DNA of 64,000 nt from the NCBI GenBank assembly GCA_903822975.1, contig CAIJRD010000005.1:1-64000 (forward strand). The letters are read 5' to 3'. Shown piece after piece: positions 12,632 to 14,673 of the stretch. Under the pieces are notes generated by a model. It saw only the letters and a list, made by a program, of their open reading frames with translations, was not told the DNA's origin and did no database searches. The stretch comes from an uncultured Sinobacteraceae bacterium (GTDB taxonomy: Bacteria > Pseudomonadota > Gammaproteobacteria > Nevskiales > Nevskiaceae). Each line of letters opens with the position of its first letter. The first letter of the stretch is position 1. The position numbers and the translations under genes were made by a program.

Positions 12632-13516
<885 letters not shown>

Positions 13517-13552
13517 GTTTGGTTCACCTCTGGGTTCACCTTGGAGCGCAGT

Positions 13553-13579
13553 CTAGCACTCGTCCGGTTGGAGTGCTAA
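13553..13579 (-). promoter_or_regulatory. CIRCE operator (HrcA site) over the rpoH promoter
   Basis: The arms read CTAGCACTC (13553-13561) and GAGTGCTAA (13571-13579) around a 9-bp spacer. The CIRCE consensus is TTAGCACTC-N9-GAGTGCTAA, so 17 of 18 arm bases match. On the minus strand a candidate -35 TTAGCA (13579-13574), an 18-bp spacer and an extended -10 TGC-TAGACT (13558-13550) are embedded in it, so HrcA binding would block rpoH transcription. The rpoH start is 37 bp downstream. Confidence 0.85.
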
Positions 13580-13704
13580 ACGCCCCAAAAGTTCTGGCTC
13601 AGCGGGGGTTTCAGCGGCTTTTTTGATCGCAATAAGTTGCCTTGCGCGTCGGCCTGGCCTCACCCCGAACGTGCCCATGCCGGCGCGCCCCCGTGATTCT
13701 TATC

Positions 13705-14673
13705 TCAGGCCGGTTCGATGTGTTTCAAGTGCCTCGAGACGGTCCAGAATGCGCCCAGCCATCCCAGCACCAGTCCGGCGCCGAATACGCCGAGAATCGC
13801 CTGCGGGGCGAGCCCGCGCAGCGAGGTTTCGGCCTCGTAGAGTCCGGCCAGTTCGTGTGCCGGCTGGCTTAGCAGCGCGCCGGCGCCGACCACCATCGCA
13901 CAGGCCAGAACGGCGCCGACCAGGCCGTAGCCGAGGCCGGTGTACAGGAATGGCCGGCGGATGAAGGCGTCGGCGGCGCCGATCAGTTTCATCACTGCGA
14001 TTTCTTCGCGGTGCCGCTCGATATCCAGGCGGATCGTATTGGCGATGACAATCACCACCGCCAGTCCCAGGGCGCTGGCGATCACCAGCACGGCGCGCTG
14101 CACCAGCGTCAGGATCGCGTAGAGCCGCTGCAGCCATTTTTCGTCGAGCTGGGCCTGCTCGACTTCCGGCAGCTTGCCGAGTTCCTTGAACAGGGCGTCG
14201 GTCTGCGCCTGCGGGGCGTGGCGATCGGGGGTGACGACGATCACCGCCGGCAGCGGATTGTCCTTCAGCAAATCCAGCGCTTCGCCGAAACCGGAATGCT
14301 GGCGGAACTCGTCGAGCGCCTGCTCGCGGCTGATGTAGCGCGCGCTGGCGACCCCCGGACGCTTGCCGAGCGAATGGCTCAACTCCTGCGCGCGGTCGGC
14401 GTCGACCGAGTCCTTCAGGAACAGCGAGGCACGCAAAGAGCCCTGCAGGCTGTCGCCCACCACGTCGAGGTTGCGCAGCACGGTGTCGAGCCCCGCTGGC
14501 AGTGCCAGCGTCAGGCCGATCACGAACGCCGTCAGCAGCGTCGCCACCGGCTTGCGCAACAGTTCCGACAGGCTGCTGTTGAGTGCGCGGCTGTGGTCTT
14601 GCAGCGTGCGCGCGAGCCAGCCCGGCGGCGGCGCCACGCGCGCGGCGGACTGCGGCGTCTTAACCGGCGTCAA
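13705..14673 (-). CDS. ftsX: Cell-division ABC transporter-like protein FtsX
   Basis: A 322-residue inner-membrane partner of FtsE that links the divisome to periplasmic amidase activation. One transmembrane helix ('LLTAFVIGLTLALPAGL', about 45-62) precedes a periplasmic loop of about 120 residues containing 'RASLFLKDSVDADRAQEL', then three helices near 195-215, 245-270 and 290-310, the FtsX topology. Its start overlaps the end of ftsE by 14 bp, so translation is coupled. Length and motifs are ordinary for the family. Confidence 0.96.
   Translation of the reverse strand: MTPVKTPQSAARVAPPPGWLARTLQDHSRALNSSLSELLRKPVATLLTAFVIGLTLALPAGLDTVLRNLDVVGDSLQGSLRASLFLKDSVDADRAQELSHSLGKRPGVASARYISREQALDEFRQHSGFGEALDLLKDNPLPAVIVVTPDRHAPQAQTDALFKELGKLPEVEQAQLDEKWLQRLYAILTLVQRAVLVIASALGLAVVIVIANTIRLDIERHREEIAVMKLIGAADAFIRRPFLYTGLGYGLVGAVLACAMVVGAGALLSQPAHELAGLYEAETSLRGLAPQAILGVFGAGLVLGWLGAFWTVSRHLKHIEPA

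Follow-up and report, generated by a model that had tools for sequence, protein, structure and literature searches.

The 64-kb stretch of DNA analyzed here (the window) carries on its minus strand rpoH at 12632–13516, encoding the sigma-32 heat-shock sigma factor (294 aa, GTG start at 13516), with a likely ribosome binding site, GAGGTG, at 13525–13530 on the same strand. The product matched the NCBIfam RpoH equivalog (405 bits; cut-off, 323), and FtsX, FtsE, and FtsY likewise scored above the cut-offs of their NCBIfam models. The upstream neighbor on the rpoH strand is ftsX (13705–14673, assigned with NCBIfam). The gap between these two genes contains, at 13553–13579, a CIRCE element, the predicted operator of HrcA, with 9-bp arms and a 9-bp spacer; both genes lie on the minus strand, and ftsX is no divergent target of the element. 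CIRCE reads CTAGCACTC-GTCCGGTTG-GAGTGCTAA on the plus strand and TTAGCACTC-CAACCGGAC-GAGTGCTAG on the rpoH strand, and the rpoH start codon is 36 bp beyond its end.

We scored CIRCE against the consensus inverted repeat TTAGCACTC-N9-GAGTGCTAA. The element matched 17 of the 18 arm positions, with the single mismatch in an outer arm base, and was the only match in the window at ≤3 mismatches, where 0.02 were expected. Shuffling the window produced a match in 2 of 100 shuffles. The original prediction of a CIRCE at this position was therefore upheld.

HrcA, RpoE, and a second operator at groESL

The original prediction depended on a repressor gene elsewhere in the genome. The window's genome encodes one hrcA (324 bits; cut-off, 197), so the absence of a repressor is no objection. 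Downstream of hrcA are what we take from their translations to be grpE and dnaK. At ≤3 mismatches the 4.46 Mb genome contained two CIRCEs, the one at rpoH (1 mismatch) and one upstream of groES-groEL (2 mismatches), and this genome-wide scan found none at hrcA-grpE-dnaK. With the assembly at 93.8% completeness over 20 contigs, a further CIRCE could be missing. Two RpoE proteins scored over the NCBIfam equivalog cut-off (G000:C2:11659 and G000:C2:474903; L271 and L272).

The sequence upstream of hrcA showed no excess over shuffles of a sigma-32 promoter, which would close the loop onto rpoH, and in this genome alone the sigma-32-like box at groESL was also no more frequent than in shuffles. Across the family, a CTTG[AT] box, presumably sigma-32-like, preceded CIRCE in 27/27 groESL loci. 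The left arm of the family groESL CIRCEs, on the groESL strand, was TTAGCAGCC in 25 loci and TTGGCAGCC in the other two (L003 1501–1527, L279–L298), and the right arm was GAGTGCTAA in 26/27.

Distribution of CIRCE upstream of rpoH

We compared rpoH upstream regions in several genome sets. The family set comprised 58 genomes, and among the 56 with an rpoH match we read the sequence upstream of 55 main loci and of 8 second copies; the counts leave out the two genomes lacking such a match, as well as G054, in which rpoH is in two fragments. The named set comprised 80 rpoH loci among the matches listed, with CIRCE sought within 400 bp upstream. The class set contained 104 genomes of at least 90% completeness, one per family code, of which 94 had rpoH and 75 had hrcA. 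Its counts omit the 10 genomes in which rpoH had no match (hrcA was present in 7), and the second rpoH of G167 (L225), which lacks CIRCE in a genome with hrcA, is outside the count of 68 hrcA-bearing genomes given below. There is overlap between these sets: the family and class sets both include the window's genome, and the upstream sequences of L005 and L006 in the named set are those of G026, from the window's genus, and G057, from its family. L005 and L006 (the latter a Nevskiaceae MAG) were also the nearest named loci by RpoH among the matches listed, and we take the window's organism to be a gammaproteobacterium close to them.

Within the family, CIRCE (≤4 mismatches) was found at the same place in 53/55 main rpoH loci and in 1/8 second copies. 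Both main-locus misses (L135 and L139) belong to one genus, in which the third sampled genome (L137) has a full site. The seven second copies without CIRCE were L170–L176, and the exception, L169, is close to a main copy.

Beyond the family, CIRCE followed hrcA. It occurred upstream of 39/80 rpoH loci in the named set among the matches listed, with hrcA in 14/40 and 27/40 genomes among those matches. By hand count, again among the matches listed, CIRCE at rpoH was present in 37/41 loci with hrcA versus 2/39 without, and the two exceptions with CIRCE but no hrcA found among the matches listed (L012 and L063) were both MAGs. For the 94 genomes of the class set, CIRCE (≤4 mismatches) preceded rpoH in 63/68 with hrcA versus 3/26 without (Fisher p 4e-14, not corrected for kinship). 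The phylum sample contained 13 loci from the same class (L299–L311), 4 of them from genomes also in the class set, and CIRCE was present in 3/3 with hrcA and 0/10 without. The element thus recurred in relatives mainly where hrcA occurs. Among class-sample genomes with hrcA, CIRCE at rpoH is the usual state, not the oddity of one genome.

Parsimony on the RpoH tree of the class set gave 16 changes in hrcA and 17 in CIRCE. Kinship-corrected tests yielded, on average, 2.8 agreeing, 0.0 disagreeing, and 0.2 indifferent pairs of 3 supported in the class set, and 2.6, 0.1, and 1.4 of 4 in the named set. The median p was 0.25 in both, and these tests lacked power because only 3–4 independent pairs fell on well-supported branches. 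Outside the class, CIRCE (≤5 mismatches) was absent from all of the 15 best-matching rpoH loci, 10 with hrcA, in a sample of 44 genomes with an rpoH match, and the wiring is therefore not general to hrcA-bearing proteobacteria.

Some individual loci deserve mention. L007 (Xanthomonas pisi) and L013, a MAG from the same RpoH clade, had a degenerate palindrome and GAACT[TA]-N16-TC in the same register as in the window; both were scored as misses, and the threshold therefore accounts for part of the misses. L249 (G145) contained two tandem CIRCE-like elements immediately 5′ of rpoH. In L042 (Pseudoalteromonas luteoviolacea H33-S), rpoH had a perfect CIRCE and the HrcA was divergent (46.6 bits, E 1.2e-11), and the remaining sampled genomes of its RpoH clade had no hrcA match among the matches listed. 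G204 (L245), with no hrcA detected, kept the left arm and a sigma-E-like pattern while its right arm had diverged; G202 (L189) had a 3-mismatch CIRCE, and G139 (L220) had a sigma-E-like pattern and no CIRCE. These three genomes possibly lost the operator once hrcA was gone; alternatively, an hrcA may have escaped detection because the genome is incomplete.

Promoter motifs interleaved with the operator

The consensus for sigma-E promoters is GAACTT, a 16-bp spacer, and TCnnA. The sequence GAACTT-N16-TCCAA at 13568–13594 on the minus strand has what we take to be the form of such a promoter, with its -35 at 13589–13594 and its -10 at 13568–13572, inside CIRCE. On the rpoH strand, the TC of the -10 are the last bases of the CIRCE left arm and CAA the first bases of the spacer. 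When rpoH loci were aligned on CIRCE, GGAACTT recurred just upstream. GAAC occupied the sigma-E register, give or take one base, in 44/66 class and 49/54 family CIRCE-bearing rpoH loci, and in 20/39 of the named ones among the matches listed, which leaves 19/39 named CIRCE loci among those matches without it. The offsets were narrow: GAAC began at -14, -15, or -16 from CIRCE in 2, 36, and 6 class loci (n = 66), in 0, 41, and 8 family loci (n = 54), and in 0, 16, and 4 named loci among the matches listed (n = 39), with a background in class loci of 0.0064 per position. None of the 27 groESL CIRCEs, a control from one family, had GAAC in register. The third spacer base, which is the last base of the -10, was A in 49/66 class and 44/54 family loci and in 21/39 named loci among the matches listed, compared with 1/27 at groESL, while C or T as the first spacer base was not discriminating (51/66 class, 25/27 groESL).

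The sigma-E site is not itself tied to hrcA, but at loci with CIRCE the operator and the sigma-E site often keep a fixed register. A sigma-E-like pattern ≤250 bp upstream was found in 45/68 class genomes with hrcA (0.68 in shuffles) and 5/26 without (0.20 in shuffles), and among the matches listed in the named set in 23/41 with hrcA (0.38 in shuffles) and 26/39 without (0.35 in shuffles). The sigma-E part of the arrangement is not universal, because 23/68 class genomes with hrcA lack the pattern, as do 18/41 named loci with hrcA among the matches listed. From its form and register, we regard the putative sigma-E type promoter as the better-supported promoter under the operator, and one that the original prediction missed.

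That prediction had instead placed a minus-strand -35 and an extended -10 of housekeeping type inside CIRCE. Such hexamers can be written from the CIRCE arms as TTAGCA-N18-TAGACT, with TG before the -10, at 13550–13579 on the minus strand, and the T that ends the would-be -10, the third base past the right arm, is conserved: it was present in 61/66 class and 49/54 family rpoH CIRCEs and in 38/39 named rpoH CIRCEs among the matches listed, and in 0/27 at groESL. The motif is weak here, as each hexamer matches 4/6 consensus positions, and a consensus scan of 13480–13760 for sigma-70 promoters with at least 9/12 hexamer matches and 16–18 bp spacing returned none. A housekeeping promoter formed from the CIRCE arms is thus likely in many relatives and possible in this genome. 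The groESL CIRCEs share their repressor and operator consensus with the rpoH CIRCE in this genome and family, but they differ in having the CTTG[AT] box, in lacking the GAAC register, and in lacking the T after the right arm (27/27).

HrcA could in principle repress rpoH only through this sigma-70 promoter, with GAACTT playing no role in this organism. The conserved T at rpoH and its absence from groESL would fit such an arrangement, as would the 23/68 hrcA-bearing class genomes without a sigma-E pattern. We consider it unlikely for the window's genome, where the hexamers fail the scan and an intact GAACTT-N16-TCCAA is present, in a register held in 49/54 family loci.

A predicted feed-forward loop at rpoH

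HrcA very likely controls rpoH in this organism, judging from the presence of hrcA and its co-occurrence with CIRCE. The original prediction went on to place two heat-shock circuits in series, and here the operator at groESL changes the picture, making the predicted arrangement a feed-forward loop instead of a series alone. HrcA probably gates transcription of rpoH from both the sigma-E and the housekeeping promoter, and it would repress groESL as well. The CIRCE site, the interleaved motifs and their register, hrcA, rpoE, the groESL site, and the co-occurrence of operator and repressor were all read directly from sequence, and from them we infer HrcA binding, repression, promoter use, and the logic of the gate.

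In B. subtilis, HrcA loses activity when misfolded protein occupies GroEL, and GroEL supports HrcA folding. At normal temperature, HrcA bound to CIRCE would cover the sigma-E -10 and both of the weaker housekeeping hexamers, and rpoH transcription would be low. Once GroEL was taken up by misfolded protein, HrcA would become inactive, the operator would clear, and rpoH would be transcribed, most strongly if envelope stress had also freed sigma-E. Release of HrcA would act on groESL twice, directly and via sigma-32, and GroEL would then restore HrcA, closing the loop.

A hairpin role has been proposed for some transcribed CIRCEs, a palindrome with perfect arms can fold, and enterobacterial rpoH is controlled by mRNA structure. 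It is nevertheless highly improbable that the main role of CIRCE here is that of a hairpin or thermometer within the leader of the rpoH mRNA instead of a DNA operator over the promoter. A start 6–8 bases after TCCAA would put the beginning of the transcript in the CIRCE spacer, so the element would function at the DNA level and not as a hairpin in the mRNA; a transcript from either motif would start inside or after CIRCE and would not contain the left arm. The rpoH leader, taken as 271 nt from the predicted start, had a folding z of -0.35, with 75/200 shuffles folding as well, although total folding energy need not reveal a thermometer. Chance was rejected as the origin of the element, and a chance or relic palindrome ignored by HrcA, with groESL as the sole working target, is most improbable. 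The CIRCE-like sites in 3/26 class genomes without detected hrcA and the position of the lone mismatch in an outer arm base would fit it; the 0.02 matches expected in the window and conservation at the same place in 53/55 main family loci and in 63/68 class genomes with hrcA speak against it.

With HrcA as a DNA-bound gate over the predicted rpoH promoter, the closest precedent is Geobacter sulfurreducens, for which a CIRCE at -51 of rpoH and HrcA control were predicted (Rodionov et al. 2004, PMC545781), so the link between HrcA and rpoH is not new as a prediction. As in the window's genome, that organism has a CIRCE at groESL too, and its rpoH element is printed with no lower-case deviations (PMC545781). 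It differs in being a deltaproteobacterium and in also having CIRCE before hrcA-grpE-dnaK-dnaJ, and the accessible part of the paper mentions no overlap with a sigma-E promoter (PMC545781). In the literature that we searched, we found no description of an rpoH locus in which CIRCE and a sigma-E promoter interleave, and this apparent interleaving is the notable part of the locus. The composite layout is undescribed within the searchable literature only, and rpoH sites in gamma- and betaproteobacteria may already be in print. A study by Permina and Gelfand, which from its title deals with these regulons in both groups, may already name rpoH among the targets of HrcA.

The textbook rpoH circuit comes from enterobacteria, and the E. 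coli rpoH promoter P3 is a sigma-E promoter with the form GAACTT-N16-TCnnA. The window resembles E. coli in having a sigma-E form upstream of rpoH, as do the enterobacterial loci L058 and L070, but among the matches listed in the named set the enterobacterial loci differ in having no hrcA match in their genomes and no CIRCE upstream of rpoH. We tentatively suggest that the rpoH promoter of those gamma- and betaproteobacteria that have retained hrcA may by descent be a composite gate, in which the sigma-E -10 has bases in common with the HrcA operator and full sigma-32 synthesis requires both sigma-E, freed by envelope stress, and HrcA release through cytoplasmic misfolding, and that the enterobacterial promoter may be the remnant left after hrcA loss, with mRNA thermometry replacing the cytoplasmic input.

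If HrcA acts directly at the rpoH promoter, on top of a sigma-E site, in most hrcA-bearing families of this large class, the enterobacterial circuit of the textbooks would be one branch of a wider design. The combination of envelope and cytoplasmic stress at one promoter, if true, would be testable with simple reporters, and the comparative set includes genomes that have the complete gate, others whose operator has possibly decayed, and others that have no gate.
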